A stretch of DNA of 24,607 bases from a virus. The stretch covers positions 1 to 24,607 of IMG/VR virus record IMGVR_UViG_3300030419_002369, one strand, 5' to 3'. Below the pieces are notes generated by a model. It ran no database searches. It was not told the DNA's origin and saw only the letters and a list, made by a program, of their open reading frames with translations. This document shows positions 9,454-24,417 of this stretch, one piece after another (the first letter of the stretch is position 1; each line of letters opens with the position of its first letter). The translations under genes were made by a program, and so were the position numbers.

Positions 9454-9455
9454 TT

Positions 9456-10304
9456 ATGAGAGTTTTAGTATTGGGTTCCAGTGGCCAAATTGGAGCATAT
9501 TTGACTGAATATCTACGTGAGAAAGGTCATGATGTAAGAGAGTTTGATAAGAATAATGGTGAGGATCAAGACCTTACTACTATTCCTAATCCTAAATTAC
9601 GCAGTAATATAATGACTGCTGATTTTGTATATGTTCTTGCATTCGATGTAGGTGGTTCTCACTACCTTAAGAAGTATCAACATACCTTTGGTTTTATTGA
9701 TAACAATGCTCGTATGTTGGCAAATGTATTTGGTCTTTTAGGTGAATACAAGAAACCATTTGTCTTTGCATCATCTCAGATGAGTAATATGAGTTACTCA
9801 CCTTACGGAGTAATGAAGAGGGTAGGTGAACTATATACTAAGTCTTTAAACGGATTGATAGTAAAGTTTTGGAATGTTTTTGGAATTGAAAATGACATGG
9901 AGAAAGCACATGTCATTACAGATTTCATAAAGAAAGGTTTTGAGACTGGTACTATTGATATGATGACCGATGGTACGGAAGAGAGGGAGTTTCTATACGC
10001 TGAAGATTGCTGTGAAGCGTTGGAAACGGTCATGGAAAACTATTCTGATTTCACTAGTGACGACGACCTTCATATTACTACTGGTTACAGTACAGATATT
10101 CTGGGCATTGCACGAACGATTCAGTCCTTATTTAAAGAGATTGGTCGGGAGGTTACTATTGTACCCGCTGAGTCTAAGGATGAGGTACAGAAGGATGCCA
10201 GAAATGTACCAAATTCGTACATTACGAAATGGTGGCAACCGAAGACTAGTGTGACTGAAGGTATTACTAAAGTATTCAATGAAATGAGGAAGGATTATGA
10301 CTAA
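9456..10304 (+). CDS. NAD-dependent epimerase/dehydratase (extended SDR), substrate unknown
   Basis: This 282-residue protein has the Rossmann motif G-S-S-G-Q-I-G at 7-13, a catalytic Ser region S-S-Q-M-S at 106-110, and Y117-G-V-M-K121. W-N-V-F-G and R-E-F-L-Y-A-E-D-C follow, as in sugar-nucleotide SDRs. It is shorter than most epimerases (about 310-340 residues). It starts 2 nt after the GDP-mannose epimerase stop, so it may process the same GDP-sugar, for example by a further epimerisation or reduction. The exact substrate cannot be read from the sequence. Confidence 0.85.
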   Translation: MRVLVLGSSGQIGAYLTEYLREKGHDVREFDKNNGEDQDLTTIPNPKLRSNIMTADFVYVLAFDVGGSHYLKKYQHTFGFIDNNARMLANVFGLLGEYKKPFVFASSQMSNMSYSPYGVMKRVGELYTKSLNGLIVKFWNVFGIENDMEKAHVITDFIKKGFETGTIDMMTDGTEEREFLYAEDCCEALETVMENYSDFTSDDDLHITTGYSTDILGIARTIQSLFKEIGREVTIVPAESKDEVQKDARNVPNSYITKWWQPKTSVTEGITKVFNEMRKDYD

Positions 10305-11064
10305 CTTGACTCCACTTAAAAGATTTATTGAACATCCCTCAAATGATTTGGGTGATAATGCATGGAAACTTCTTGACTTAGTTAAGACCATGAGGAATAA
10401 AAGGTTTATGGACCTTGGAGTTCGTAATGGTGCATCTTCTGCTATTATGTCTGTAGAAGCAGATGAGAGAAAGAACCAAGCTTGTGGATGTGATTTTATG
10501 TTTGAGGGTTTCTTTAGAGATTCCCGTAAATTTGTGAGTGAAAATTATCTATGTTATCAAGCAGATAGTGTTACTCTTGGTAAGAATTGGGATGAGGATC
10601 CGTTTGATATTATTTTTATTGATACTATACACACAAGAGAACAGGTACTTGCTGAACTATACTTTTGGTCAAATCATTTAAATGAGAATGGGTATTTTGT
10701 TTTCCATGATTCTCATTGGGAGAAAGAAGGTGGGGATGTTATTGCAGGAAAGGAATGGAAGAGAGTTGATGTTGCTATTACTGATTTCTTTAATCTACCT
10801 AAGAACGTAATGGAATTAACAGAGTATGAGAATGATGATATATTATTAAATCATTTTCCTGGTAGTTATGGTATGACTTTTGTGAAAGTAAAGACACTTG
10901 ATGCTATAGAAAGATTTAAAGAGGGTGTAGATTGGAAGGAAGTATTTGATATTCGAAATCAATTAAGTGATTTCCATTTAAATAAGCAACGTCCTGATTG
11001 TATTGGACATGAATGGAAATTAGATTTCGATAATATTGATAATGAATTAGTTATTAATCCATGA
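10297..11064 (+). CDS. Class I SAM-dependent methyltransferase (Methyltransf_24-like)
   Basis: This 255-residue protein has a SAM-binding motif D-L-G-V-R-N-G-A-S-S at about 39-48, an acidic second strand (C-G-C-D-F), and F-D-I-I-F-I-D-T-I-H with an Asp and His typical of the MT24 group. F-V-F-H-D-S-H marks the strand with a probable catalytic site. The C-terminal 70 or so residues are unlike the core and may bind the acceptor. Members of this group often act on sugars or glycans, so a sugar O-methyltransferase role is plausible. It overlaps the upstream gene by 8 nt and the downstream gene by ATGA. Confidence 0.8.
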   Translation: MTNLTPLKRFIEHPSNDLGDNAWKLLDLVKTMRNKRFMDLGVRNGASSAIMSVEADERKNQACGCDFMFEGFFRDSRKFVSENYLCYQADSVTLGKNWDEDPFDIIFIDTIHTREQVLAELYFWSNHLNENGYFVFHDSHWEKEGGDVIAGKEWKRVDVAITDFFNLPKNVMELTEYENDDILLNHFPGSYGMTFVKVKTLDAIERFKEGVDWKEVFDIRNQLSDFHLNKQRPDCIGHEWKLDFDNIDNELVINP

Positions 11065-11885
11065 CATTTTCGGTATCCCATTGGTCGGGTCGCTTAGGAA
11101 ATAACATACAGCAGATTGCTAATTGCATAATGGCTGCTGAAAAATATAAGTGTACTTTCCGTCAAAAGTTAGACCATGATATTATTCCAAAGTATGATGT
11201 AAACTTTGAAGGTTTATATGCTTCTGATTACTCAGCAGATGCTAGGTATTATTCTTGGGAAGCATTAGTTCATTGTGAGAAGGGATGTTATGAAGGTGGT
11301 AATGAAACTGGATTAGGTGTAGAGCATATCTATAGGAATATGCAAAGAACCTGCCAAGTAAATATTGCACCTTACTTGATGCTCCCACATAAGGATCCCA
11401 TTGGTAGTGATACAATTGTAATGCATCTTAGGAGTGGTGATAATTATCACAGAATATTTGATCCACCAACTAACTATGTTCCTAATCCTCTAGTGTTTTA
11501 TTTGGAATTAATAGATTTATATGATAAAGTAATTATTATTACAGAACCAGATAGAGAAAATCCTATAGTTCATGAGTTAGAGAAGATTGATAAGGTGAAG
11601 ATACAATCTTCCACAGTTGCAGATGACTTTGCTACACTAATGAATGCAGAGAATGTAGCATTGTCTGGTGTTGGAACCTTTGCAATGGCTGCGGCACTTT
11701 GTTCTACTAATATTAAAAATCTTTATACTACAGATTTGTTATTGACAGAACATTTAAATTATACTATGCTTTATAATACGAATGTGGAAGTTAATGTTAT
11801 GGAGTTAGATAATTATCTCCCAGTATTTCCTTGTAGTTGGAAGAATACTGAGGAGCAACGTAAGTTTATTCTTGAATATCGATGA
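11061..11885 (+). CDS. Putative glycosyltransferase, divergent GT11 (fucosyltransferase)-like
   Basis: This 274-residue protein has the GT11 N-terminal pattern G-R-L-G-N-N-I-Q-Q-I at about 10-19 and a basic-acid motif H122-L-R-S-G-D127, where canonical GT11 enzymes have H-x-R-R-x-D. The C-terminal region has S-G-V-G-T-F-A-M-A-A-A in place of the usual N-S-T-Y-S-W-W. Family members transfer fucose (alpha-1,2) from GDP-fucose, and related donors such as GDP-L-galactose are conceivable here. The fold call is fairly good; donor and acceptor are inference. It has ATGA overlaps on both sides. Confidence 0.65.
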   Translation: MTFSVSHWSGRLGNNIQQIANCIMAAEKYKCTFRQKLDHDIIPKYDVNFEGLYASDYSADARYYSWEALVHCEKGCYEGGNETGLGVEHIYRNMQRTCQVNIAPYLMLPHKDPIGSDTIVMHLRSGDNYHRIFDPPTNYVPNPLVFYLELIDLYDKVIIITEPDRENPIVHELEKIDKVKIQSSTVADDFATLMNAENVALSGVGTFAMAAALCSTNIKNLYTTDLLLTEHLNYTMLYNTNVEVNVMELDNYLPVFPCSWKNTEEQRKFILEYR

Positions 11886-12874
11886 AAATATTTGTAACAG
11901 GATGTGCTGGATTACTTGGCGCAAATTATACTCGTCATTTAATTGCTAACGGTCATCATGTCGTTGGTATTGATAATCTTTCTGGAGGATATAAAGCCTT
12001 TGTTGCTAAAGGTGAAAATTTTGAGTTTGTAAAATTAAATTTAGAAAGAAGAAAAAAGGTTGAAAAATTATTTGAGGAGCACAGACCAGATGTTTTACTT
12101 CACTTTGCCGCTTATGCTGCTGAAGGTTTATCTCCTTTCATTCGTAATTATAACTACCGTAATAATCTTATATGCTCTGCTAACTTAATTAATCCTTGTA
12201 TCACTTATGGTACAAAGATGATCTTTACATCTAGTATGGCAGTTTATGGTGGACAACAGACACCATTTACAGAAGATAAACAACCTATGCCTATTGATCC
12301 TTATGGTGTTGCTAAGTATGCTGTAGAAACTGATTTAAGATTAGCACATGAGCAGTTTGGTTTAAGATATAATATTGTTAGACCTCATAATGTTTTAGGT
12401 ATCTATCAGAATATCTGGGATCGTTATAGAAATGTGATTGGTATATTCATTCGTAAGACATTGAATGGTATTCCTATTCTTGTTTATGGTGATGGAGAAC
12501 AGACTAGAGCATTCTCAGATATTCAGTATTATATGGAACCATTTGATATTCTTTTGAATGAATTTGATGGTGAGATCTTTAATATTGGTGCTGATAAGTT
12601 CTTTAGTTTGAATCAAGTTGCAGAAACAGTACAAAAGATTGGTAGTAAATATGGTTATGATGTTCCTATAGAACATGGACCTCCACGTCATGAAGTAAAA
12701 CATGCTTATTGTGATCATACAAAGGCAAAAAATTTACTTAAGTTTAAAGACAATACTGAATTAGAAAACTTGATTGAGAAACTATTTGTTTGGGCAATGA
12801 AGGAACCTAATAGAAAGGTAAAGGATATTGAATATGAAGTTACTAAAGACATTTATGAGTACTGGAGAACTTAA
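11882..12874 (+). CDS. UDP-glucose 4-epimerase-like extended SDR
   Basis: This 330-residue protein has G-C-A-G-L-L-G at 7-13, D-N-L-S-G-G at 31-36, T-S-S-M-A-V-Y-G with the catalytic Ser at 117-118, and Y141-G-V-A-K145. R-P-H-N-V-L-G-I-Y and Y-G-D-G-E-Q-T-R-A-F-S-D follow. The order and length match the GalE/UDP-sugar 4-epimerase group. It could interconvert UDP-glucose and UDP-galactose, their N-acetyl forms, or act on the UDP-glucuronate that the dehydrogenase at 22391 may make. The sequence alone does not settle which. ATGA overlap with the previous gene; the next gene follows with no gap. Confidence 0.87.
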   Translation: MKIFVTGCAGLLGANYTRHLIANGHHVVGIDNLSGGYKAFVAKGENFEFVKLNLERRKKVEKLFEEHRPDVLLHFAAYAAEGLSPFIRNYNYRNNLICSANLINPCITYGTKMIFTSSMAVYGGQQTPFTEDKQPMPIDPYGVAKYAVETDLRLAHEQFGLRYNIVRPHNVLGIYQNIWDRYRNVIGIFIRKTLNGIPILVYGDGEQTRAFSDIQYYMEPFDILLNEFDGEIFNIGADKFFSLNQVAETVQKIGSKYGYDVPIEHGPPRHEVKHAYCDHTKAKNLLKFKDNTELENLIEKLFVWAMKEPNRKVKDIEYEVTKDIYEYWRT

Positions 12875-13525
12875 ATGTATTATCAAAAAGATTTTGAACG
12901 ATTGAGGAGAAAGTTCTCAGAAGCAGAAAATATACAGGAGAATTATTCACAATCAATGCAAGATATGTTTGTATTGACTATGCTTAATGGGAAAAGGAAT
13001 GGAGTTTATGTGGAGATTGGTGGAGATAAACCAATATCAATTAGTAATACGTACCTACTAGAAAAGGAGTTTGATTGGATGGGAGTTTCATTTGAATTGG
13101 ATGGTGACAAGGTATCATACTTCAATACCATCAGAAGAAATAAATGTATCTGTGCTGATGCTACAGATTATGATTATAAATTTCTTTTTGAGGAAAGAAA
13201 ATATCCAAACCAGATAGATTATCTTCAATTGGATATTGATCCTGCACCACAAACTCTTGAGGCATTAAAGAAGTTACCCTTAGATGATTATAGATTTTCA
13301 GTAATCACATATGAGACTGATGTTTATCGTCATGGCCCAGACATTCAGGATGAGCAGATAGATATATTAAAATCTTATGGGTATCAGTTGGTTGCAAAGA
13401 ATGTTCAATGTGAAGGGAATCCTTATGAAGATTGGTGGATTGATCCTGCAATTGTTTCAGAGGATGTTTGGAAACCATTTAGAACTGATATTGGTTCCGA
13501 TTCTATGGAGGTTATTCTAAAATGA
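12875..13525 (+). CDS. FkbM-like methyltransferase (Methyltransf_21-like)
   Basis: This 216-residue protein starts directly after the previous stop. Y-S-Q-S-M-Q-D at about 24-30 and Y-V-E-I-G at about 45-49 match the opening and SAM-binding strand of the FkbM group; G-V-S-F-E-L carries the ribose-binding acidic residue, and D-Y-L-Q-L-D-I-D follows the expected pattern. In this group the core G-x-x-D-G is often kept; here it reads G-G-D-K-P, so SAM binding may be altered. A sugar O-methyltransferase role fits the surroundings. ATGA overlap with the next gene. Confidence 0.75.
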   Translation: MYYQKDFERLRRKFSEAENIQENYSQSMQDMFVLTMLNGKRNGVYVEIGGDKPISISNTYLLEKEFDWMGVSFELDGDKVSYFNTIRRNKCICADATDYDYKFLFEERKYPNQIDYLQLDIDPAPQTLEALKKLPLDDYRFSVITYETDVYRHGPDIQDEQIDILKSYGYQLVAKNVQCEGNPYEDWWIDPAIVSEDVWKPFRTDIGSDSMEVILK

Positions 13526-14283
13526 GCGACACTTGGACCTTACAGGATGAAGCAGCAAATCCTTATTTAACAATATGCAGAGTAGCTGCACAATCTTCTG
13601 ATGCTTTTAAGACATTTAAGAGTCATGGTGCATATCGACATGTATTGGAACATGTAGCAATGGAAGAAGGTCAGCAGTATTTGGATGAGATTAAGATAGA
13701 TTTTATGGATAAACTTGATGAAGTTAAACAAAATGATTCTTTAGGTGGTCCCGTTACATATACTTACGATAAGGTTGGTAATATATCAGCAACTACTTTA
13801 AGATACTTAAAAAATACTTCTGATATTGTTACTAAGTTTGGGACTTCTTTTGATTCTATTGTTGAGATTGGTGGTGGATATGGTGGACTTTGTAAGGTGA
13901 TGAGTTCTTTTGTTGATTTTGAGAATTATCTTTTGGTTGATTTAGAAGAATGTAATATGTTGTCTAGGAAATATCTTTCTTTCTTTGATCTCCCAACAAT
14001 GTCTTATAGATCAGAAGAGATTGAGGTTGAAGATAATTTTGATCTTCTTATTAGTAACTATGCTTTCTCTGAATGTCATAAAGAAGTTCAACTTGATTAT
14101 ATTGAACGGTTTATAAAGAAATCTGATAAGTTCTACATGATGCATAATAATTTTCATTTAGAGATGGGGACTATTCCTCATGAAGAGTTTGTAGAGATTA
14201 TGTCAGATACTCATGATGTAGAATGGTATAATGATCATGGAGTTTCTGATGCTCCTAAGATCATATACGGAACTATAAAATGA
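13522..14283 (+). CDS. Putative sugar O-methyltransferase
   Basis: This 253-residue protein has a clear SAM motif E115-I-G-G-G-Y-G-G, preceded by a helical N-terminal domain of about 100 residues. L-L-V-D-L-E-E supplies the acidic residue of the second strand, and D-L-L-I-S-N-Y-A-F-S-E is the fourth strand with a N-x-x-F-S-E signature seen in proteins annotated as putative sugar O-methyltransferases. The position between a methyltransferase and a GT17 glycosyltransferase supports a glycan substrate. ATGA overlaps on both sides imply coupled translation. Confidence 0.8.
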   Translation: MSDTWTLQDEAANPYLTICRVAAQSSDAFKTFKSHGAYRHVLEHVAMEEGQQYLDEIKIDFMDKLDEVKQNDSLGGPVTYTYDKVGNISATTLRYLKNTSDIVTKFGTSFDSIVEIGGGYGGLCKVMSSFVDFENYLLVDLEECNMLSRKYLSFFDLPTMSYRSEEIEVEDNFDLLISNYAFSECHKEVQLDYIERFIKKSDKFYMMHNNFHLEMGTIPHEEFVEIMSDTHDVEWYNDHGVSDAPKIIYGTIK

Positions 14284-15119
14284 AGGTATTTGATTCGTTT
14301 AGATTTTTTAATGAACTAGATCTCTTAGAAATAAGATTTAATTTACTTTATGATTCTGTAGATCATTTTGTTATTACAGAATGTCCCTACACTATCATGG
14401 GTGATGAGAAACCTTTGTATTATTGGGAGAATAGGAAGAGGTTTGATAAGTTTAATGATAAGGTTATCCATGATGTTATGGAGGAGATACCTGATAACTT
14501 CTCAGATTATGTTGAGAAGAAAAAGTATCATACTCCTTATGGAAATACTGATCGTAATTGTGGACAAGCTTATATTACTATTCCCCTTAGGTATCAGAGA
14601 GATATCTATGCTAGGAATTATACTTCATATTCTTTAGAGAAAGCAGGTGTTGAGGATGATGATATTGTTATTACAAGTGATGCGGATGAAATTATTAATC
14701 CATTAGTTTTAGAAAATATGGATTGGTTTGATGGACATAATCATTATGTTGCTTTACAAAGAACATTTTATTATAAACTAAATCTTCTTCGGGAAGAAGA
14801 TTGGATGGGATCCAGAATTTGTAAATGGAGAATATTAAAAGATAGTTCTGTAGATGAATTACGTCAGAATCATCCACAATCATATAGGATAGAAAAGGGT
14901 GGATGGCATTGGAGTTACTTTGGTAATGTTGAAACTATTGAACAGAAACTAGAAGCATGTGCTGATAGTCATCATGGATCATCTGATTTGCAAGAGAAGA
15001 TTGATAATGGATTGGACCCAGTAGGGAGGGGATTGGGTTATGATAAGGTTCCTCTTGACGATTCATTCCCAGAGTATATACTAAACAATCAAGAGAAGTA
15101 TTCTAAGTTCATTTTATAA
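14280..15119 (+). CDS. GT17 family glycosyltransferase
   Basis: This 279-residue protein begins with the GT17 hallmark F-D-S-F-R-F-F-N-E-L-D-L-L-E-I-R, followed by V-D-H-F-V-I-T-E, K-P-L-Y-Y-W-E-N-R and S-D-A-D-E-I at 133-138 (metal-binding D-x-D-E). G-G-W-H-W-S-Y-F-G comes near residue 215. The named family member is the beta-1,4-N-acetylglucosaminyltransferase that adds bisecting GlcNAc, but bacterial and phage members have untested specificities. It lies 3 nt before the next gene. A role adding GlcNAc or a related sugar to the cassette's glycan is inferred. Confidence 0.88.
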   Translation: MKVFDSFRFFNELDLLEIRFNLLYDSVDHFVITECPYTIMGDEKPLYYWENRKRFDKFNDKVIHDVMEEIPDNFSDYVEKKKYHTPYGNTDRNCGQAYITIPLRYQRDIYARNYTSYSLEKAGVEDDDIVITSDADEIINPLVLENMDWFDGHNHYVALQRTFYYKLNLLREEDWMGSRICKWRILKDSSVDELRQNHPQSYRIEKGGWHWSYFGNVETIEQKLEACADSHHGSSDLQEKIDNGLDPVGRGLGYDKVPLDDSFPEYILNNQEKYSKFIL

Positions 15120-15122
15120 GTT

Positions 15123-16067
15123 ATGGAATTACTTGAGGGAGTTGCACTCTCTAAACTTTGTGATTATTCATTCGGAGATCAATCAGGTCAATGGGGTAAC
15201 ATCTATACCTCATTCATGGAACCTGCTAACCTTTTAAATCTTGATTTTGTTACTAAGATTTATGAGGTAAAGAAGGAGAGAGATTATATGACTCTCTTTA
15301 TTGATAATATTAGATTGTATAAGAGAGTTATTGAGGATGTTAAACCAGAGGATAGAGATTATGTTAATTCGTTAATGGCAACGAGTGATCTTCTTGAGTT
15401 GTGTTCTCATTTCTCATCAATGAAGTTTATTATCTTTACTAATTTAGAAGATACTCCTATTGATGGTTTTATTCATGGTCTTATACCAGAGAATGTACTT
15501 TGTATCTCTGCTATAAATGCAATTGCACATGGAGATAAAGTTATACCAGCACCATATGGTTTACAAAGAAGAATGACTCCTGATGATAAGAGGATAGAAC
15601 AATTGCAGAGTGCTATGAATGCAAATGTTGATCCTTCTATGTTTAAACTTCTTTATGTAAATCATAATGATAATTCTCATCCTGATAGATTGGGTATTAA
15701 AGATATTTTTAAGGAATATGAATGGGCAAATGTAGATGAACAGAGAGTTGATTATTATAATTTTCTATTAAATCTTGCAAAGCATAAGTTTATTGTTTGT
15801 CCTAGAGGTAATGCAATTGATTGTCATCGTAATTGGGAAGTTCTGTATATGAGAAGAGTTCCTGTTATGGTAACTGATACATATCTTATGGATTTATTTT
15901 ATGATTATCCTGTTTTGTGGGTTCATGATTATGCAGATGTTACTCATGATTTATTAAAAGATAATAATCATTTGTATGAAGAAGCACAAGAAATGGATTT
16001 GACTCCATTGACTCTTCCCACTTTCTTTGATAATATTGTTAATAAGTATGCAGGTGCAAATGGATAA
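15123..16067 (+). CDS. Exostosin-like (GT47-type) glycosyltransferase
   Basis: This 314-residue protein has a C-terminal nucleotide-sugar domain with L-L-Y-V-N-H-N at about 178 and the strong motif C226-P-R-G-N-A-I-D-C-H-R. W-E-V-L-Y-M-R-R-V-P-V-M-V follows. This layout is typical of exostosin/GT47-like enzymes and related GT-B proteins with a C-P-R-G-x-x-x-D-x-x-R-x-W-E signature. The donor is unknown. It starts 3 nt after the GT17 stop and ends inside the next gene by 8 nt. Confidence 0.72.
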   Translation: MELLEGVALSKLCDYSFGDQSGQWGNIYTSFMEPANLLNLDFVTKIYEVKKERDYMTLFIDNIRLYKRVIEDVKPEDRDYVNSLMATSDLLELCSHFSSMKFIIFTNLEDTPIDGFIHGLIPENVLCISAINAIAHGDKVIPAPYGLQRRMTPDDKRIEQLQSAMNANVDPSMFKLLYVNHNDNSHPDRLGIKDIFKEYEWANVDEQRVDYYNFLLNLAKHKFIVCPRGNAIDCHRNWEVLYMRRVPVMVTDTYLMDLFYDYPVLWVHDYADVTHDLLKDNNHLYEEAQEMDLTPLTLPTFFDNIVNKYAGANG

Positions 16068-16647
16068 ATTTATTGAGAAGGCACTGCATGGTGATGGTGA
16101 TTCTGATCGTCATCTTATTTCAATCTTTGCAATGGCACTTGCATCCAAAGGGAAGACGTATGTTGAGTTGGGTGTAAGAGAGGGACATACTACTGAACCA
16201 TTATATGAGGCTGCTAGATTAAATGGTGGTCATTTGTGGTCTGTAGATATAAACGATCCGACAGAATATAGACCAGACAATGGGAATTATACTTTTGTTA
16301 AACAAGATAGTATAACTTTTTTAGATCAGTGGGATCCAGGTAAGAAAATAGATGTTGTCTTTGTTGATGATTGGCATTCATATAAACATGTTAAGAAGCA
16401 GTTAGAATTACTTGATGAATTGGTTGGACCGAGTAGTATAATACTCTTACACGATTTAATGTATGGGAACACAGATCCTTTTTATCATGCAGACCTTGCA
16501 CACGGTGGACCTCAATGGGATTCTGGTGGTCCTTATCGTGCTGTTGCAGAATTGAATCCACAGTTCTGGGAATGGTCAACACTACCTTGGAATAATGGAC
16601 TAACTATATTACGTAAAAAGTACAGTAACAAATACCATAGGAGATAG
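16060..16647 (+). CDS. Class I methyltransferase (Methyltransf_24-like), second copy type
   Basis: This 195-residue protein starts at ATG 16060, overlapping the previous gene by 8 nt; ATG 16048 is an alternative. Y-V-E-L-G-V-R-E-G at 34-42 is the SAM loop, W-S-V-D-I-N-D supplies the ribose-binding Asp, V-V-F-V-D-D-W-H is the D-x-H strand and I-I-L-L-H-D the following strand. It shares this plan with the protein from 10297 but lacks its C-terminal extension. It is probably a sugar or glycan O-methyltransferase. It is followed 1 nt later by the next gene. Confidence 0.8.
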   Translation: MDKFIEKALHGDGDSDRHLISIFAMALASKGKTYVELGVREGHTTEPLYEAARLNGGHLWSVDINDPTEYRPDNGNYTFVKQDSITFLDQWDPGKKIDVVFVDDWHSYKHVKKQLELLDELVGPSSIILLHDLMYGNTDPFYHADLAHGGPQWDSGGPYRAVAELNPQFWEWSTLPWNNGLTILRKKYSNKYHRR

Positions 16648-16648
16648 T

Positions 16649-17578
16649 ATGTTAGCAGCAAGTATTCACGAACACGCTGGTTTGGGTAATCAGATATGGA
16701 GGTATGTCTGCTGTAGAGTATTCGCAGAACATCATGGATATGAATGGGGTGTGAGTCATCCTGGTTGGCGTGGACCATTTCTTAATATAGATTGGGGTAA
16801 GGAAGTTAATCTTAATGTAGAACAAGACTCAGACTTCCAAATGGTAGAAGGTTTTAAGCATTATTATAAAGAGAAGTGGATACATCATAGGAGTGCTCCT
16901 GGTGAGATTGGGGATCCTGATAATAAGTTTTATGAATTACCTGATAATTGTTATATCAATGGTACGTTTCAGAGGATGAGTTATATTGAAAAACATCGTG
17001 ATAAGATTTGTAGTTGGTTAACTTATGATGATAAGGTTACTGATTATGCATCCGAAGAATATTGTGTGATTCAGATACGTGGTGGTGACTATACTACAGG
17101 ACACTCTATGCTGCCACCACAGTACTATCAGATGGCGATGCAAAATATGAAGGATAATAATCCTGATATTAAGTTTGTTATCGTTACAGACGATCCTGGG
17201 ACTGCTCAGAAGTATCTTCCTGGTGTACCTATTGTTGGTTCTGCTGTATCTGAAGAGAAGGATCAATATCAAAAAAATATTTCATGGTATACCTATCCTG
17301 GTGGACCAGTAGGAATTGATTATAGTATTCTTAATACAGCAAAGTATGCTATAATATCTGCATCAACCTTTGCTTTTTGGCCTATCTGGACAAACAATGA
17401 TCTTGTAAATGTTATTGCTCCTAAGTATTGGTTTGATTGGTCAAGGTCTGATGGGTGGTGGAGAATGAAAGATGGTATTGTAAATGATCAGAGATGGTTA
17501 TGGATGGATACGCAAGGAGATCTTTATGAGACTAGTACTTGTATAGAACACGCAAAAGAATACTATGCTAAATCTTGA
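16649..17578 (+). CDS. Putative glycosyltransferase, GT11-like
   Basis: This 309-residue protein has G-L-G-N-Q-I-W-R-Y at about 11-19, the GT11-style opening, and Q142-I-R-G-G-D147 in place of H-x-R-R-x-D. P-P-Q-Y-Y-Q-M-A-M follows and F-V-I-V-T-D-D-P carries the T-D-D motif. S-A-S-T-F-A-F-W-P-I-W matches the N-S-S-x-S-W-W region of GT11 with changes, and I-A-P-K-Y-W-F-D follows. It is more divergent than the copies at 18248 and 20773, so donor specificity may differ. A 1-nt gap precedes it and a 14-nt overlap follows. Confidence 0.72.
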   Translation: MLAASIHEHAGLGNQIWRYVCCRVFAEHHGYEWGVSHPGWRGPFLNIDWGKEVNLNVEQDSDFQMVEGFKHYYKEKWIHHRSAPGEIGDPDNKFYELPDNCYINGTFQRMSYIEKHRDKICSWLTYDDKVTDYASEEYCVIQIRGGDYTTGHSMLPPQYYQMAMQNMKDNNPDIKFVIVTDDPGTAQKYLPGVPIVGSAVSEEKDQYQKNISWYTYPGGPVGIDYSILNTAKYAIISASTFAFWPIWTNNDLVNVIAPKYWFDWSRSDGWWRMKDGIVNDQRWLWMDTQGDLYETSTCIEHAKEYYAKS

Positions 17579-18245
17579 TAATGTAACATTATTTTGCATT
17601 TCTTCAGATAATGTATCTGGAGCGTTAAATGCATTACAATATAGTATGAGGGGTATCAAGTATGGTGCTGTTAAACTCATCACCCACGAGAGACCTCAAC
17701 AAAGTTTACCACAAGGTATTGAATACTCAGAGTGCTATGAAATTACTTCTATTCACGACTACAACTATTACTGTATCTACAATCTTACCGGACACATTGA
17801 CACTGATTACTGCTTACTTGTACAGCCTGATGGCTTCGTATTAAACCCAGACAAGTGGGAAGATGAATTCTTTAAGTATGATTATATCGGTGCTCCTTGG
17901 GAGAAGGTTCCACATTCATACTTAGACCCTTGGGGTAAGGGACATCGTGTGGGTAACGGTGGGTTCTCATTCCGCAGTAAAAAATTATTAGATGTACCGA
18001 AGAGAGCACATATACAATTTGATGTAAACTGGGGTGACTTCTATAAACACTTTGGTTATGGTAATACAGCAGAGGATGGAAATATTTGTGTGCATAACAG
18101 ACATATATATGAATTACTAGGGTGTAAGTTTGCACCTGTAGAGGTAGCAGCAAGGTTCTCTCAAGAGAAACAACTACCAGAGACACAAGGGATTACTCCT
18201 TTTGGTTTTCATTATCACCTCCCACCAGGGACTAATATGGGTTAA
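17565..18245 (+). CDS. DUF5672 family protein (probable glycosyltransferase)
   Basis: This 226-residue protein matches the DUF5672 pattern: L-L-V-Q-P-D-G-F at 84-91, then W-E-D-E-F-F-K-Y-D-Y-I-G-A-P-W at about 98-112, R-V-G-N-G-G-F-S-F-R-S-K, and a tail with F-G-F-H. The conserved Q-P-D-G resembles a D-x-D-like metal site of GT-A folds, and such proteins are often encoded in glycan clusters. The 17675-17870 stretch of the gene uses C-ending codons unlike the rest. It overlaps the upstream gene by 14 nt. Confidence 0.8.
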   Translation: MLNLDNVTLFCISSDNVSGALNALQYSMRGIKYGAVKLITHERPQQSLPQGIEYSECYEITSIHDYNYYCIYNLTGHIDTDYCLLVQPDGFVLNPDKWEDEFFKYDYIGAPWEKVPHSYLDPWGKGHRVGNGGFSFRSKKLLDVPKRAHIQFDVNWGDFYKHFGYGNTAEDGNICVHNRHIYELLGCKFAPVEVAARFSQEKQLPETQGITPFGFHYHLPPGTNMG

Positions 18246-18247
18246 TT

Positions 18248-19084
18248 ATGATAGGACACAATCACTTAGGAAAGAATGGTCGCTTTGGAAATCAGATGTT
18301 CCAGTATGCAGCACTTAGAGGCATTGCTGCAAAGCATGGATATGAATGGTGTATTCCACCTGGACCAACAACTGATGATGAGTTTACTGACGAAGAGAAT
18401 GATCATAAATTATTCATGGCATTTAAAATGTCTGGAGTATTTGAAAAGAAAACTGTAGATGGGAAACGGGTTCATGGGTCTAAGGTTAAGACATTCCCTG
18501 CACCTTATCAGCAAGAAGGAAGTTTTACATTCGATCAGGAACTATTTGATACTTGTCCAGATAATATCAATCTCTATGGGTATTTTCAATCAGAAAAATA
18601 TTTTAAACATATTGAAGATGAGATCAGGAAAGACTTTACTTGGCGTGACGACGTTAGGGATCTTTGTCAAGATCTTTTTAATAGCATTGATGGCGAGGCT
18701 ATTTCCCTCCACATTCGACGCACTGACCACTTGGTTAAACCAACATATCATCCAGTACTTCCGATAAGTTATTATGAGGAAGCACTGTCCAAGTTCCCTT
18801 CTGATATTCCTGTTTTAGTATTCTCTGATGATCCTATGTGGTGTCATGATGAAGCATTCTTTGGTGATGATAGGTTTATGATATCAGATAGTGGTGATAA
18901 CATTACTGATATGTGCTTGATGAGTATGTGTGATTATCAGATCATGGCAAACTCTACTTACTCTTGGTGGGGTGCTTGGTTATCTAACTCAGAGAATGTG
19001 ATTGCACCTAAGTTATGGTTTGGTCCTGATGGTCAAGACCCTAGAGATGTGTATGTAGATCGTTGGGAGTATCTTGAAGTATGA
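18248..19084 (+). CDS. GT11 family (alpha-1,2-fucosyltransferase-type) glycosyltransferase
   Basis: This 278-residue protein shows all GT11 blocks: G-R-F-G-N-Q-M-F-Q-Y-A-A-L-R at about 11-24, Y-F-Q-S-E-K-Y-F, H155-I-R-R-T-D160, Y-Y-E-E-A-L, F-S-D-D-P and N-S-T-Y-S-W-W-G-A-W, then A-P-K-L-W-F-G. The H-x-R-R motif binds the GDP donor in this family. GDP-fucose is the usual donor; in this cassette GDP-L-galactose from the 8359 enzyme would be an alternative. It is a clear paralogue of the protein from 20773. The DNA encoding the H-x-R-R motif (about 18690-18735) has C-ending codons. ATGA overlap with the small membrane gene. Confidence 0.88.
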   Translation: MIGHNHLGKNGRFGNQMFQYAALRGIAAKHGYEWCIPPGPTTDDEFTDEENDHKLFMAFKMSGVFEKKTVDGKRVHGSKVKTFPAPYQQEGSFTFDQELFDTCPDNINLYGYFQSEKYFKHIEDEIRKDFTWRDDVRDLCQDLFNSIDGEAISLHIRRTDHLVKPTYHPVLPISYYEEALSKFPSDIPVLVFSDDPMWCHDEAFFGDDRFMISDSGDNITDMCLMSMCDYQIMANSTYSWWGAWLSNSENVIAPKLWFGPDGQDPRDVYVDRWEYLEV

Positions 19085-19233
19085 GAACACAGCGTAAAGA
19101 AAACTATTATTATGTTTTCTGGACTATAGCAATGATTGCTTTTATAGTTCCACAAGTCTTTACTGCATATGCATATATGAGTATTAAAGATCTTCTTGAT
19201 AAACCAATAAAGGTTGAGTATATTAATGACTGA
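19081..19233 (+). CDS. 50-residue single-span membrane protein within the glycan cassette
   Basis: The frame runs from ATG 19081, inside the ATGA overlap with the GT11 stop, to TGA 19231-19233, overlapping the next start by 8 nt. The product begins M-R-T-Q-R-K-E-N-Y-Y-Y, then has one hydrophobic span at about 12-33 (V-F-W-T-I-A-M-I-A-F-I-V-P-Q), then a polar tail. The Arg/Lys-rich N-terminus suggests it stays cytoplasmic. It fills exactly the gap between two glycosyltransferase genes, which supports reality. It could anchor the enzymes to the membrane, but that is speculation. Confidence 0.68.
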   Translation: MRTQRKENYYYVFWTIAMIAFIVPQVFTAYAYMSIKDLLDKPIKVEYIND

Positions 19234-19975
19234 ATTTTCTATAGCAATACCAGCACACGATAGAGGAGAGAACGGTCCCAAGTGGATGGCAGAATTACTT
19301 GATACATTAAAGCAACAGACTTTTCAAGATTTTGAGGTGGTTGTATCAGACCAGAGTAAGAATGATAACATAATGAATGTATGTCAGAAATATGATTTTG
19401 ATTTTACATACATTAAGTATGAAGGTAGTGTTCCGTGTGAGAATATTAATATTGCATTAGAGAATTGTGAGGGTAGAATCATTAAGATTATGTTCTCTGA
19501 TGATATCTTTGTGAGAAAGGATGCACTAGAACGTATTAAATATGAGTATGATAATACTAGATGTAAGTGGGCCTTTAGTGGGTTTGCTAATTGGGATGGT
19601 GATGAATATTTTGATGAGAAACTTCCTGAGTGGAAAGAGAGAACACTTGAAGGGAACAATCATTTAAGTAGTCCTACAGTAGTTTCTTTTCTAAATGAAT
19701 ATAAGCAGGAGTTTGATGTTAATCTTAAACTCTTGCTAGATGTGGATTTTTATCATAGAATGAGGTGGTTACATGGGAAACCAAATATCATACCTGAAGT
19801 TCTGGTTGCAAATCGAGATCATGATGATAGAATTAGTAGCGATGCAACATCTAAGTATGATTGTGTTATCGAGCACTCAGAAGGTAATTGGATGATGAAT
19901 AGGGCGGAACTAAATTACGTTTACCAGAAGTACCCTGGTTTTATTCGCAACGGAAAGTATCCAGATGAGAATTAA
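19226..19975 (+). CDS. GT2 family glycosyltransferase
   Basis: This 249-residue GT-A protein starts at ATG 19226 (M-T-E-F-S-I-A-I-P-A-H-D-R). T-F-Q-D-F-E-V-V-V-S-D-Q-S lies at about 32-44, and the metal/nucleotide site is S91-D-D93. The second half has L-L-L-D-V-D-F-Y-H-R-M-R-W, typical of the acceptor region of small GT2 enzymes. Donor and acceptor are unknown. It overlaps the small membrane protein gene by 8 nt and the next gene by 11 nt. Confidence 0.85.
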   Translation: MTEFSIAIPAHDRGENGPKWMAELLDTLKQQTFQDFEVVVSDQSKNDNIMNVCQKYDFDFTYIKYEGSVPCENINIALENCEGRIIKIMFSDDIFVRKDALERIKYEYDNTRCKWAFSGFANWDGDEYFDEKLPEWKERTLEGNNHLSSPTVVSFLNEYKQEFDVNLKLLLDVDFYHRMRWLHGKPNIIPEVLVANRDHDDRISSDATSKYDCVIEHSEGNWMMNRAELNYVYQKYPGFIRNGKYPDEN

Positions 19976-20786
19976 TTTATCAGAAGCAACTTTTATCATA
20001 CCTGTTAGGATAGAATCTCCTGATAGGTTGAGGAATGTGGTTACAACTACTGCATTCTTAATGGAGAACTTTGATACTAATATTATTATCAAAGAGGTTG
20101 ATAAGGAACCAGTGTTTCAAAGGGATGCTCTTCCTTTATTAGAAGAGATACTTGATTTTAATATCTGGGAGAACTTTAATTACATCTATGAGAAGAGTGA
20201 TGATCCTTTGTTTCATCGTCAAAGGATTTTAAATGAAATGATAATGGAGGCAGATACTCACATCGTTGTTAACTATGATGCTGATGCTATCCTTCCAAAG
20301 GAATCATATGAACTTGCTTATAAGGGTATTATGGATGGAGTATATGATGTAGTTTATCCTTATGGTAGTGGGATGTATCAGAAGCAAGTACATGCAACTG
20401 ATGTAACTGTATCTTCTTTCTTGGAGACAGGTGACTATGAGTTCCTGAATGCTGTATCAAAAGATCATACATCAGACTTTGGATGGGTTCAGTTCTTTAA
20501 GAGAAGTAGTTATATACAAGGTGGTATGGAGAATGAAAACTTTAAAGCATATGCACCAGAGGATAAGGAAAGATATTATAGATTTAATATGTTAGGATAT
20601 AGTGTAGGACGTATTGAAAATTATGTTTATCATTTAGAACATGCAAGGGGTGAGAACTCCTGGTTTAATAATCCACACATGGATGGTAACATGTCTGAGT
20701 GGGATAAAATTAAAAATATGAGCAAGGATAACTTGCTGAAATATTATTCTGAACAGGAGTATCTACAGAAGTATGCTGGCATTTAA
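19965..20786 (+). CDS. GT-A glycosyltransferase with galactosyltransferase-like (GT7 C-terminal type) half
   Basis: This 273-residue protein has a GT2-like N-terminus (F-I-I-P-V-R-I-E-S-P-D-R) and a metal site Y104-D-A-D107. G-G-M-E-N-E-N-F lies about where GT7/GT27 enzymes have G-x-x-N-E-x-F, followed by A-P-E-D-K-E-R-Y-Y-R and H-L-E-H-A-R-G. The second half thus resembles the beta-galactosyl/GalNAc transferase C-terminal domain. It could transfer galactose or GalNAc. It overlaps the following GT11 gene by 14 nt. Confidence 0.75.
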   Translation: MRINLSEATFIIPVRIESPDRLRNVVTTTAFLMENFDTNIIIKEVDKEPVFQRDALPLLEEILDFNIWENFNYIYEKSDDPLFHRQRILNEMIMEADTHIVVNYDADAILPKESYELAYKGIMDGVYDVVYPYGSGMYQKQVHATDVTVSSFLETGDYEFLNAVSKDHTSDFGWVQFFKRSSYIQGGMENENFKAYAPEDKERYYRFNMLGYSVGRIENYVYHLEHARGENSWFNNPHMDGNMSEWDKIKNMSKDNLLKYYSEQEYLQKYAGI

Positions 20787-21624
20787 TAACATAGGTAGTC
20801 TGGGACGACTAGGTAATCAGATGTTTGAGTATGCTGCACTACGTGGCATTGCTAAAAACAAGGGATATGATTTCATGATTCCAACTCCTGATAGAAAGGG
20901 GATAGAGAATTATAGTCTGCATAGTTGTTTTAAGTTATCACCTGATAGATATGAGGGATACCAGGAGCATTTTAATTATGCTCAAGAACCTTACTTTCAT
21001 TTTTGTGAGGAGTTATTTGAGACTTGTCCTGATAATGTAAGTCTTCATGGATTCTTTCAATCGTGGAGATATTTTGCTAATGTTACTAAAGAATTAAGAG
21101 AAGACTTTACTTTCCATGATAGCATTTTAAATCCTTGTAAGGAGATGATGGAGGAACTTGATGGACAAGAACCTATCATGCTTCATGTTCGTAGAGGAGA
21201 TCCTAATCTTACAGACCCTCGTGGATTCAAGTGGTCATATACTCAGTGTGGGTCTATGCATCCAGTGCAACCCATAGAGTATTATGAGAAGGCACTTTCT
21301 AAGTTCCGTAAGGATCAACCTGTTATTGTATTTTCTGATTCTGTTGACTGGGTGAAGGAACAAGAATTCTTTAAACCAGATCGATTTATGATCTCTGAAC
21401 CAGAAGATAAATATGCCGATGGTTCTTTTACACCTTATGCTGATTTATGCTTGATGAGTTTGTGTTCTCATGCTATAATTGCTAACAGTAGTATGAGCTG
21501 GTGGGGTGCATGGTTACAAACCAATCCAGACAAGATAGTAATTGCACCAAAGATGTGGTTCGGTCCTGATTATAAGGACAAAGATACCAAAGACCTTTAT
21601 TGCCCTGAGTGGATACTATTATGA
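20773..21624 (+). CDS. GT11 family glycosyltransferase, paralogue of the 18248 gene
   Basis: This 283-residue protein has G-R-L-G-N-Q-M-F-E-Y-A-A-L-R-G-I-A at about 11-27, F-F-Q-S-W-R-Y-F, H138-V-R-R-G-D143, Y-Y-E-K-A-L, F-S-D-S and N-S-S-M-S-W-W-G-A-W, then A-P-K-M-W-F-G-P. It aligns along its length with the enzyme from 18248, for example C-P-D-N followed by G-(Y/F)-F-Q-S. Two related enzymes with different acceptors or positions on the same glycan are likely. It overlaps nadE by ATGA. Confidence 0.88.
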   Translation: MLAFNNIGSLGRLGNQMFEYAALRGIAKNKGYDFMIPTPDRKGIENYSLHSCFKLSPDRYEGYQEHFNYAQEPYFHFCEELFETCPDNVSLHGFFQSWRYFANVTKELREDFTFHDSILNPCKEMMEELDGQEPIMLHVRRGDPNLTDPRGFKWSYTQCGSMHPVQPIEYYEKALSKFRKDQPVIVFSDSVDWVKEQEFFKPDRFMISEPEDKYADGSFTPYADLCLMSLCSHAIIANSSMSWWGAWLQTNPDKIVIAPKMWFGPDYKDKDTKDLYCPEWILL

Positions 21625-22394
21625 TTAGAATAGATGATTATGAAAGATTAGAGTATGACATTGAAAGATGGATCAAGGATTATTATTGGTTTAATAATGT
21701 TAAATCATTAGTAGTTGGAGTATCTGGTGGAATAGATTCTGCCGTAGTGTCTACTTTGTGTGCTAAGACAGGATTACCCACATATGTAGTGTGTATGCCT
21801 CTTGAATCGACACATAATAATAGTAAGTTATCTGAAGATCATGCTAAGAAATTGGCAGAGAAGTATGATAATGTAACTCAAGTAATGGTTGAATTGTCTA
21901 GTGCTTATTATCAATTTCATCATTCGATTGAGTGGTGGTCTGATGCACATGGACATGGTAAGAAAGAATTTACTTCTGATGAATTGACTAATGCAAATAC
22001 AAAGGCACGTATGAGAATGCTTACCTTGTATCAGATTGCTGGTGCTAAGGGTGGTATTGTAGTTGGTACTGGTAATAAGGTAGAAGATTATGGTGTAGGA
22101 TTCTTTACTAAGTATGGTGATGGTGCAGTGGACATTGCTCCTATCGCAGATCTTTACAAGTCAGAGGTATGGGAACTAGGTGAGTATCTAGAAGTAGATC
22201 AACGTATTGTTGATGCAGCACCTACTGATGGACTATGGGATGATCAGAGAACAGATGAGGATCAACTGGGTGCTACCTATGAACAGTTAGAAGAAGCAAT
22301 GGAAAAAGGAACTGGACCTGGTGTTGATGTTCTTAAATATTATAATGAAAAGAATCAACACAAAATGAACCCTATCCCTACATTTAAATTATGA
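21621..22394 (+). CDS. nadE: NAD+ synthetase (ammonia-dependent type)
   Basis: This 257-residue protein is predicted to amidate nicotinic acid adenine dinucleotide to NAD+ using ATP. It has the PP-loop S35-G-G-I-D-S40, a central K-A-R-M-R-M-L-T-L-Y helix, then G-T-G-N-K-V-E-D-Y-G-V-G-F-F-T-K-Y-G-D-G, D-I-A-P-I-A-D-L-Y-K and the P-T-D-G-L-W-D-D-Q-R-T-D-E-D-Q-L-G loop. No glutaminase domain is present and length is normal for the ammonia-dependent form. The ATG at 21621 shares ATGA with the upstream GT11 stop, so I prefer it to GTG 21609. ATGA also joins it to the dehydrogenase gene, an NAD+-consuming enzyme. It could sustain NAD+ for the SDR/dehydrogenase steps or restore NAD+ depleted by host defences; both are inference. 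Confidence 0.93.
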   Translation: MIRIDDYERLEYDIERWIKDYYWFNNVKSLVVGVSGGIDSAVVSTLCAKTGLPTYVVCMPLESTHNNSKLSEDHAKKLAEKYDNVTQVMVELSSAYYQFHHSIEWWSDAHGHGKKEFTSDELTNANTKARMRMLTLYQIAGAKGGIVVGTGNKVEDYGVGFFTKYGDGAVDIAPIADLYKSEVWELGEYLEVDQRIVDAAPTDGLWDDQRTDEDQLGATYEQLEEAMEKGTGPGVDVLKYYNEKNQHKMNPIPTFKL

Positions 22395-23509
22395 AAATAG
22401 GATTAATTGGAGCAGGAAGACTTGGAATTTGCCTTGCTCTTCTTATAGGTAAGGCGGGATATAGTGTCTTAGCATCTGATGTTAGGGAAGATTATATCAG
22501 CGGTCTTCAGAACAAAGAACTTTCTACTAATGAACCAGGAGTTTTGGATCTTCTTAGAACATCCTGGATGGTAGAATTCACCACAGATAATTCAAGAGTT
22601 ATTGATGAATGTGATATTATCTTTACTCTTGTTGCTACTCCATCATTAGAAGATGGAAGTTATGATGTAAATGCTGTATGGAAAGTTGTTGATGATTTTA
22701 AGAATGCATCTGGTGTACTAAAGGGTAAGTCTCTTGTTGTTGGATGTACTACCAATCCAGGTGATTGTGATTTATTTCAAGAGCAGTTAGAACCTCTTGG
22801 TGTAGATATCTATTACAATCCAGAGTTTATTGCACAGGGATCTATTGTTAATGATCTACAGAATGCTGATATGGTATTGCTTGGTGGTCAAGGAGAACAT
22901 TCTATTGTATTAAATGATATCTATGAGAAGATTCAATATGGGTATACTGTTCCATCTATTCATTTTATGAGTACAAGGGCTGCAGAGTTAACAAAGATTG
23001 CACTCAATTGTTTCCTTACAACTAAGATCAGTTATGCTAATCAGGTTGGTCAGGTAATGATTAAAGATGGTATGGAGGATGAGATTGATAGTGTATTGGG
23101 AGCAATTGGATCGGATTCAAGAGTTGGTAATAAGTATCTTGGTTTTGGGTTTGGATTTGGTGGACCTTGTTTCCCTAGAGACAATCGTGCCTTTGCTGCA
23201 TATGCACAAGGAGTTGGTGTACAGACTGCTATTGGTGAGACAACAGATAATTTTAACAATGAGCACACTGATTTTCTAAGAGATTATTATATTAATAAAA
23301 ATAAGGATGAATTACCTTTTTGTTTTTCCTACTTGACTTATAAGAAAGGTATAGATATCCTTACAGAGAGTCGTCCTTATGATCTTGCTTTATCTCTTTT
23401 AGAAGAAGGGTATAAAGTATACTGCATTGACAATACATGTAGTGATCAGGTGGATGATAGAATTATTCTTTCTGAACCTAAAGAAGATGTTTGTTGGATT
23501 GACCTATGA
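22391..23509 (+). CDS. UDP-glucose/GDP-mannose dehydrogenase family protein
   Basis: This 372-residue protein oxidises a sugar nucleotide at C6 with two NAD+, giving a uronate. G-L-I-G-A-G-R-L-G is at 4-12, Y-Y-N-P-E-F-I-A-Q-G-S is the substrate segment, A-E-L-T-K-I-A-L-N carries the conserved Lys and Asn, and F-G-F-G-F-G-G-P-C260-F-P-R-D contains the catalytic Cys at residue 260. The C-terminal domain has L-T-Y-K-K-G but is short. Whether it uses UDP-glucose, UDP-N-acetylhexosamine or GDP-mannose is undecided. It shares ATGA overlaps with nadE and the next glycosyltransferase gene. Its product could be the substrate of the SDR at 11882. Confidence 0.92.
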   Translation: MKIGLIGAGRLGICLALLIGKAGYSVLASDVREDYISGLQNKELSTNEPGVLDLLRTSWMVEFTTDNSRVIDECDIIFTLVATPSLEDGSYDVNAVWKVVDDFKNASGVLKGKSLVVGCTTNPGDCDLFQEQLEPLGVDIYYNPEFIAQGSIVNDLQNADMVLLGGQGEHSIVLNDIYEKIQYGYTVPSIHFMSTRAAELTKIALNCFLTTKISYANQVGQVMIKDGMEDEIDSVLGAIGSDSRVGNKYLGFGFGFGGPCFPRDNRAFAAYAQGVGVQTAIGETTDNFNNEHTDFLRDYYINKNKDELPFCFSYLTYKKGIDILTESRPYDLALSLLEEGYKVYCIDNTCSDQVDDRIILSEPKEDVCWIDL

Positions 23510-24417
23510 TGCTTGATTATGCTGAAAAGAATAAAGCAGCCTATAAATTAAAAGGTTTAGGTCCTATCTATTGTATTAATCTGGATGGTCAACCAGAGAG
23601 ATGGGAGTTTATGAAAGCCCAATTTAAGTATTGGGAAATAGAAAACTATGAAAGGATCTCTGCTTATGATGGTAGAGAAGATGATCTAAGTGATATTATT
23701 ACAGGTAAATATCCAGAGTCTATGTCTTCTGGTGAGATTGGATGTGTAACCAGTCATCTAAAAGCAATGAAGCACTGGTTAGAAACATCTGATAGTAAGT
23801 ATGCAATCATGATGGAAGATGATTGTAGTCTTGATTTAGTTCAGTTTTGGAATTTTACTTGGAGAGATTTTTATTCCCATATTCCTTTTGATTGGGATGT
23901 AGTGCAGATTGCTATTATTTGTACAGGTGATATTCATGTCAAACTTCATAAGAGATTTGTAAATGATTTTTCTACCGCATGTTATTTAATTACAAGACAT
24001 CATGCAGAGAAACTTTTAAAGTTTCATACACGTAAGGGTAAGTATAAACTTGATAATGGTGCTAAACCACGTCCAGTTGCAGATGATTTAATATACAATG
24101 CGGGTAATACATATGCTATTCCTTTGTTAGTCTATCGACATGAACTTGGATCTAGTATTCATCCAGAACATGTAGATGCTTTTCATAAGGGAAATTATGA
24201 TGCACAGACTAATTTCTGGGCTCAGAATGGAGCAAGTATTGATATTAGAGATTATATGAATTATGATCCTTATGTTGGTAGAACTTCTGAGAACTCTGCA
24301 CTACCTAAAGATGATCAAACATATAATCCAGGTCCGTGGGATTCTGCACCAGAACCAATAGGGGAAGATGATTTAGAAGGTTCGGAAAACCAGTTTACTC
24401 CAGGTCTCCCAGAGTGA
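23506..24417 (+). CDS. GT25 family (LPS-type) glycosyltransferase
   Basis: This 303-residue protein has I-Y-C-I-N-L-D at 21-27, R-W-E-F-M near 32, the G-E-I-G-C-x-x-S-H block at 76-84, and the metal-type motif E104-D-D106. These are the landmarks of GT25 LPS glycosyltransferases. The C-terminal region has R-P-V-A-D-D and P-L-L-V-Y-R-H, then a flexible Pro/Glu/Gly-rich tail of about 35 residues outside the usual domain. ATG 23506 overlaps the previous stop as ATGA. It is the last gene of the cassette. Confidence 0.88.
   Translation: MMLDYAEKNKAAYKLKGLGPIYCINLDGQPERWEFMKAQFKYWEIENYERISAYDGREDDLSDIITGKYPESMSSGEIGCVTSHLKAMKHWLETSDSKYAIMMEDDCSLDLVQFWNFTWRDFYSHIPFDWDVVQIAIICTGDIHVKLHKRFVNDFSTACYLITRHHAEKLLKFHTRKGKYKLDNGAKPRPVADDLIYNAGNTYAIPLLVYRHELGSSIHPEHVDAFHKGNYDAQTNFWAQNGASIDIRDYMNYDPYVGRTSENSALPKDDQTYNPGPWDSAPEPIGEDDLEGSENQFTPGLPE

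Follow-up and report, generated by a model that had tools for sequence, protein, structure and literature searches.

Phage genes of NAD metabolism are commonly interpreted as boosting energy supply or countering host defense; we present here a large subfamily of marine phage NadE proteins that tracks one enzyme of a glycan cassette. The window is the 24,607-nucleotide stretch of DNA analyzed here; the viral record that contains it has 34,316 bases and is itself a fragment. In it, nadE directly precedes the gene for a nucleotide-sugar dehydrogenase (UGD), and sequence comparison with related viruses gives good support to a coupling of the two genes that is tight and nonrandom. This tightness is what is new; phage nadE itself was already known and is annotated as an NAD synthetase in S-SSM7, Bellamy, HTVC008M, and others. 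No report of the pairing was found in the available portions of the open-licence literature, in one of which nadE and UDP-glucose 6-dehydrogenase are listed among abundant snow-virus genes with no link drawn (PMC11097641). The explanation that we place first, at slightly short of an even chance, is a functional ammonia-dependent NAD synthetase kept with an NAD+-dependent dehydrogenase and topping up NAD+ for the sugar-acid step. Either outcome, an NAD+ need of the cassette or a NadE acting on a sugar acid, would change the annotation of a common "auxiliary metabolic gene," and the question is testable on isolated cyanophages.

The nadE gene and the glycan cassette

The features of the window that bear on the pairing are as follows.

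2559..5051, + strand: glycogen/alpha-glucan phosphorylase (TIGR02093, 1135.8 bits); the true start probably lies downstream of the listed one
8359..20786, + strand: remaining glycan cassette, with three SDR epimerases/dehydratases, GT2, GT11, GT17, methyltransferases, and unassigned ORFs
20773..21624, + strand: GT11 (fucosyltransferase-like) glycosyltransferase, directly upstream of nadE (PF01531, 7.1e-27)
21621..21624, + strand: ATGA overlap of the upstream GT11 gene and nadE
21621..22394, + strand: nadE, homologue of single-domain, ammonia-type NAD synthetases, 257 aa (PF02540, TIGR00552, AlphaFold2 model)
22391..22394, + strand: ATGA overlap of nadE and the dehydrogenase gene
22391..23509, + strand: UGD nucleotide-sugar dehydrogenase, "type 0," partner of nadE (PF03721/PF00984, TIGR03026)
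23506..24417, + strand: GT25 glycosyltransferase, directly downstream of the dehydrogenase (PF01755, 2.1e-13)

The nadE reading frame runs from the ATG at 21621 to the TGA ending at 22394 and encodes 257 aa. A GTG at 21609 could serve as an alternative start, but 82 of the 88 phage rows in the family alignment have M at the position of the 21621 start, which favors the latter. The first-pass annotation had called this gene nadE, set between 4-nt overlaps and next to a dehydrogenase gene, and each part of that description is borne out. The protein matches Pfam NAD_synthase (PF02540, E = 1.2e-48), the TIGR00552 nadE equivalog domain model (180.8 bits; curated cutoff, 63.65), and PHROG 11189 "NAD synthetase" (E = 1.7e-88); its score against the narrower model NF010587 is 182.7, below the cutoff of 255. 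Both overlaps read ATGA. Four-base overlaps are commonplace in the glycan cassette, so they are unremarkable in themselves; it is the conserved pairing across phages that is remarkable. The dehydrogenase matches PF03721 and PF00984, exceeds the cutoff of TIGR03026 (197.7 bits against 189.8), which places it in the UDP-glucose/GDP-mannose dehydrogenase family, and has GxGxxG and the catalytic Cys motif GFGGPCFPRD.

No CN_hydrolase (glutaminase) domain was found in the 257-aa NadE, whose Pfam matches are limited to NAD_synthase and, more weakly, HUP domains. The annotation of a Sf-FS3 phage protein as "CN hydrolase" hinted at a glutaminase partner; that protein had no Pfam match, and the idea was dropped. 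The AlphaFold2 model of NadE (mean pLDDT, 89.7) matches solved NAD synthetases over its full length: the Francisella NMN synthetase 3fiu at a Z score of 30.3, 2e18 at 27.8, and the Bacillus subtilis NadE 1nsy at 26.7. GMP synthetases come next in the structure search, at Z scores of at most 16.7. The best sequence match in the PDB is again 3fiu, the NadE* of Francisella tularensis (E = 1.2e-41), yet the two proteins are only about 32% identical.

The window NrdB shares 83.2% identity with that of Synechococcus phage S-SM2 and lies near those of many T4-like cyanophages. The source is thus probably a marine, T4-like cyanophage, a cyanobacterial host being suggested by NrdB kinship. The phosphorylase gene is located between nrdB and the glycan cassette, and among named cyanophages it has a close homologue only in S-SCSM2R (71.9%), which is also positive for nadE and UGD. 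Its product could supply glucose-1-phosphate towards UDP-glucose; phosphorylase and nadE together would fit a phage that feeds UDP-glucose oxidation from both sides, although two cases carry little weight. Two small ORFs lie in the same region. The one at 5077-5547, between the phosphorylase gene and the cassette, has a weak homing-endonuclease match (PADLOC HEase, 3.3e-05), and that at 5723-6055 encodes a stand-alone cupin domain resembling the C-terminal part of mannose-6-phosphate isomerase (PF01050). Mannose-6-phosphate isomerase-like cupin genes are reported for cyanophage S-SCSM1 in the available text of PMC9602691.

Coupling of nadE to the dehydrogenase across viruses

The near set comprises the window and the best 80 of 314 viral relatives (81 loci). 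UGD lies within three ORFs downstream of nadE on the same strand in 77 of them, following nadE directly in 60 and after one or two intervening ORFs in 11 and 6, respectively; the other four loci end at the sequence edge, so UGD is present in 77 of the 77 whose sequence reaches far enough. The gene upstream of nadE is GT11 in 37 rows, SDR in 20, and from other clusters or missing in 25, out of 82 rows in which the window's record stands twice. Locus L001 is that same record and was dropped from all counts except the cluster-membership and flank tables, the upstream-gene count included; L240 was dropped because it shares a contig with L005. A further set of 79 loci was collected with an HTVC008M query (21 loci) and a 642-kb phage query (49), together with two loci from a UGD query and seven named records. 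UGD is inside the locus in 43 of these, upstream of nadE in five of the 43, and absent from 36, one phage being counted twice among the 79 (L084 and L171, the latter an IMG/VR copy of HTVC008M).

Named phages give the same picture. Every record with a NadE of 45% or higher identity to that of the window carries UGD (15 of 15, including two Bellamy records), UGD was found in 0 of 32 named records with more distant NadEs, and 17 UGD-bearing records of the phage collection have no NadE match; the counts of 15 and 32 are of records, many of them duplicate accessions and some fragments, and not of independent phages. The NadEs of S-SSM7, S-SSM6a, Bellamy, P-TIM68, Sf-FS3, S-SCSM2R, and HTVC008M belong to the same subfamily as that of the window (45.8 to 58.4%) and share its UGD pairing. 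The UGDs of Bellamy and of the pelagiphage HTVC008M are of "type 1," whereas the other five are of "type 0," like that of the window. A window epimerase served as a control. Proteins with at least 63% identity to it occur in 37 phage records (marine or Synechococcus/Prochlorococcus), of which 12 carry both nadE and UGD, 25 neither, and 0 one alone (again records rather than independent phages). A cassette with NAD-dependent epimerases therefore needs no nadE, whereas UGD does.

Among 42 large records, UGD (PF00984) is present in all 29 in which it is linked to nadE and in 7 of the 13 in which it is not near nadE; no UGD was found in the remaining 6 of the 13, most of which are fragments. All 42 contain one full-length NadE each, with a further weak match in four, and NadE is accompanied by UGD, an NAD-route gene, or both in 40, the records of L185 and L199 having neither. 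A search of viral_contigs for UGD without nadE, using the window UGD as the query, returned three loci, all nadE-positive, and is uninformative.

The dehydrogenases are more diverse than the pairing. A total of 119 UGD sequences fell into four groups of 94, 19, 4, and 2 members, with at most 38.3% identity between groups. The Cys is kept in all types inspected, within GFGGPCFPRD in type 0, GDGGxCHPRD in types 1 and 2, and GYGGSCFIKD in type 3. Inside the window's own NadE clade, L054, L057, L076, L077, L078, and Bellamy have type 1 UGDs, and the others have type 0. Marine virus AG-345-E15 has the named NadE most similar to that of the window (66.1%), yet its UGD is merely 27.6% identical to the window's and 81.3% identical to that of Bellamy. 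As read from these sequences, the NadE-UGD pair persists while the dehydrogenase family is repeatedly swapped, even within that clade. As a separate observation, GDGGxCHPRDN replaces GFGGxCFPxD around the Cys in the UGDs of L170 (9000s), L082, L088, and other members of types 1 and 2, which form a distinct, unnamed group of phage nucleotide-sugar dehydrogenases.

A NadE tree was built from 89 of 240 rows after removal of near copies, 15 rows whose flank was too short for labeling being dropped as well. UGD-linked NadEs appear in several places of this tree, and the HTVC008M clade falls within a starred group with Pelagibacter genes. Holding the UGD-linked NadEs as one clade was rejected (p-AU 0.0075; labels were fixed before the tree was made, and the test was run after the tree had been seen). 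Parsimony counts on the quick NadE tree left many open forks, and the AU test was relied on instead.

These results bear on the explanation that nadE and UGD are neighbors only through an old cassette spreading as a block, with no functional tie. Because the 80 nearest loci share ancestry, the gene order they have in common does not amount to 80 independent events. Nevertheless, the pair is retained where its flanking genes change, UGD is replaced in place by distant types, the two genes co-occur without adjacency in the 7 records noted above, and a single UGD-linked clade is rejected, and we regard such passive linkage as very unlikely.

Conserved residues, selection, and cellular relatives of NadE

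The window NadE has SGGxDS, the loop of N-type ATP pyrophosphatases, together with the motifs TKxGDG and HK; we take the residues of all three to be binders of ATP and deamido-NAD. With single-domain type N NadE (TIGR00552/PF02540) it shares the same 257-aa synthetase domain, SGGIDS loop, TKYGDG and HK motifs, and fold; unlike housekeeping NadE, it is phage-borne and fixed beside a sugar dehydrogenase, and its activity is predicted. An alignment of 23 diverse NadE rows (UGD-linked phages, other phages, and cellular genes) contains 59 invariant columns, including the SGG.DS loop (SGGIDS in the window), GTGN.VED, TKYGDG, PTDGL, and HKM. Residues G33, S35, G36, G37, D39, and S40, T163, K164, G166, D167, and G168, and H247 and K248 are invariant in all 23 rows. 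Pairwise dN/dS among 81 close relatives has a median of 0.198 and reaches at most 0.349 (809 of 3240 pairs with usable pS), and the window gene gives 0.14 against locus L002 and 0.18 against L004. In its predicted fold, its catalytic motifs, and the purifying selection on its gene, NadE is consistent with an active enzyme, and NAD synthetase activity of the phage protein is, on this basis, likely.

The best 80 of 591 cellular relatives come from Pelagibacteraceae, Poseidoniales, Flavobacteriaceae, Chloroflexi, and others, the closest being from marine bacteria and archaea. All 20 cellular genomes examined have the homologue as their sole full-length NAD_synthase match, the rest being short HUP-domain matches in longer ORFs, and NadD exceeds its cutoff in 14 of the 20; the cellular subfamily would therefore carry out the ordinary last step of NAD synthesis, from NaAD. 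Near nadE, no UGD was found in any of these 80 cellular loci (blastp 1e-8 with the window UGD, which distant types could escape). A cellular precedent, in the form of a second NadE beside UGD in glycan clusters, was rejected, as far as these best 80 of 591 relatives go, on that result and on the lack of a second full-length NadE in the 20 genomes. The phage nadE does not look host-derived, to judge by two points: none of the best 80 of 591 cellular relatives is cyanobacterial, and a two-domain form of cyanobacterial NadE is implied in the accessible part of PMC3376133.

Roles considered for the coupled enzyme

If NAD+ provision is the reason for the pairing, NadE would convert NaAD, ATP, and NH3 to NAD+ and during infection would top up NAD+, so that the host pool would limit neither the dehydrogenase, which needs two NAD+ for each sugar acid, nor the cassette's SDR enzymes. 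That the coupling acts through such provision is about an even call and is the weakest step of the explanation, because the dehydrogenase reduces NAD+ without destroying it. Extra NAD+ is an indirect help for the dehydrogenase, and the strict adjacency exceeds what a supply role needs. The SDR enzymes do not require nadE, since the same epimerases and glycosyltransferases occur without it in 25 of the 37 control records. A cyanobacterial host already has its own NadE, as the match to Synechococcus elongatus NadE in control searches indicates. The first-pass annotation had pointed out that a lone NadE can act only where NaAD is available. This is right in biochemistry, and an NMNAT-like protein reported in virions of T4-like cyanophages, in the part of PMC9602691 available, could supply NaAD.

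NaAD and UDP-uronate are alike in that each has a carboxylate-bearing ring linked via a diphosphate to a nucleoside. This likeness is a point for another explanation, in which the NadE homologue is a sugar-acid amidase that would adenylate the carboxylate made by the dehydrogenase to give a uronamide, as WbpS-type enzymes do in bacterial O antigens. Amidation would explain why the partner makes a carboxylate, why adjacency is kept while the dehydrogenase family changes, and why cassettes without UGD lack nadE; the specificity of the pairing would be better explained by it than by NAD+ supply. If it were true, NadE with four dehydrogenase types would turn NDP-uronate into NDP-uronamide for a phage-directed glycan, would be the first NadE-family enzyme to act on a sugar nucleotide, and would account for a pair that is almost never split. 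Uronamides made by an ATP-dependent amidotransferase encoded beside a UDP-sugar dehydrogenase are known from WbpS, in the available portions of PMC7468200 and PMC6025236. WbpO and WbpS place a sugar-acid dehydrogenase and an ATP-dependent amide-forming enzyme in one pathway, as hypothesized for UGD and NadE; WbpS, however, like the known uronamide enzymes, is of another family (AsnB-like), whereas the window counterpart is NadE-like and its sugar activity hypothetical.

Residue comparisons weigh on amidation from both sides. Two residues of the catalytic region, Y157 (elsewhere F) and A173 (elsewhere S), are specific to the window's NadE clade, each being found in 100% of 90 main-clade rows and in 0 to 1% of 25 nonlinked phage and 80 cellular rows. 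However, the active-site motifs are invariant together with those of sole-copy housekeeping NAD synthetases, and none of 261 positions has a residue common to all UGD-linked NadE groups yet rare elsewhere (thresholds of 0.8/0.6/0.6 in the linked groups and 0.3 in the rest; the 25 phage rows counted as nonlinked lack UGD within the fetched locus, yet UGD lies elsewhere in 7 of 13 such large records). The absence of such a residue argues for an unchanged substrate. Furthermore, the UGD-linked lineages are not one clade, so a switch of substrate would need to have occurred more than once. Amidation had been the lead reading and was demoted to a rival on the residue test, which yielded only the clade-specific changes; we now consider it unlikely.

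The kinship to 3fiu, the top match by both sequence and structure, leaves room for a third activity and tells against supply from NaAD, as NaMN could be the substrate instead. NadE would then be a NadE*-like NMN synthetase converting NaMN to NMN, and an adenylyltransferase would follow as in the Francisella-type route, the virion NMNAT-like protein being a candidate for the second enzyme. Fourteen of the 29 UGD-linked records, all six named isolates among them, have a CTP_transf_like ORF of about 400 to 600 aa, although PF01467 (CTP_transf_like) matches mix several enzyme types; the window's own 34-kb fragment has 0 such matches. In T4-like cyanophages, the virion-associated NMNAT-like proteins at L243 830-2017 and L244 6866-8248 have GRFNPPTVGH and GMSASKMR motifs. 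Such a protein is not specific to nadE phages, as S-SCSM1 has no nadE match, and it resembles NMNAT families only weakly, with no PDB match at an E value of 0.1 or below for L244, the one searched. In Francisella, NadM replaces NadD according to the accessible text of PMC3376133, whereas the closest cellular kin of the phage gene mostly have NadD, which points to NaAD as the substrate. The same text describes the Methanocaldococcus jannaschii NadE as an NAD synthetase without NMN synthetase activity. An NMN synthetase is, on balance, decidedly unlikely.

NAD+ supply and counter-defense had both been left open in the first-pass annotation. A supply-type role tied to the dehydrogenase is the one favored here; counter-defense, in which NadE would restore NAD+ after a host NAD+-depleting defense, is unsupported for UGD-linked nadE, because NAMPT/NAPRT-type genes are nearly absent from the UGD-linked records, and we hold it to be most improbable. 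NadE would complete a host-fed nicotinate route. NAD+ salvage by phage KVP40 reportedly needs a nicotinamide-type transferase. So does NARP1, a known phage-encoded NAD+-restoring route, in the portion of PMC12774641 available. The KVP40 salvage (NadV/NadR-type) and NARP1 (Adps plus Namat) are, like the window NadE, phage-encoded NAD+ production, but they use a nicotinamide transferase, which is absent from the window's 34-kb record, and are not tied to sugar dehydrogenases. The NAMPT/NAPRT family (PF04095) is found in 1 of the 29 UGD-linked records, that of the 642-kb phage, and not in the window's own fragment, detection of Namat by PF04095 having had no positive control. NAPRTase-family genes occur in 6 of the 42 large records, five of them among the 13 nonlinked ones and the other in the 642-kb phage. 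NadE in true NAD routes has other neighbors, namely, NAPRTase in L216 and CTP_transf_like in L233, and the NadE of Xanthomonas phage X1 has NMNAT and NAMPT annotated nearby; here, nadE tracks UGD and not other NAD genes. PADLOC, run on 10 window proteins, gave no match except the weak homing-endonuclease one.

Two further arrangements were seen around nadE. In one large-phage group (L197 to L200, L205, and L207), an ORF of about 551 aa precedes nadE; considered as a NAMPT, this candidate was rejected, since in L197, the one scanned, it is a phage chaperonin (PF00118, 1.7e-72). At L193 4121-5674, next to UGD, the nadE frame is 517 aa long; behind its NadE part come about 270 aa that match nothing in Pfam, and NadE may here be fused to a cassette protein.
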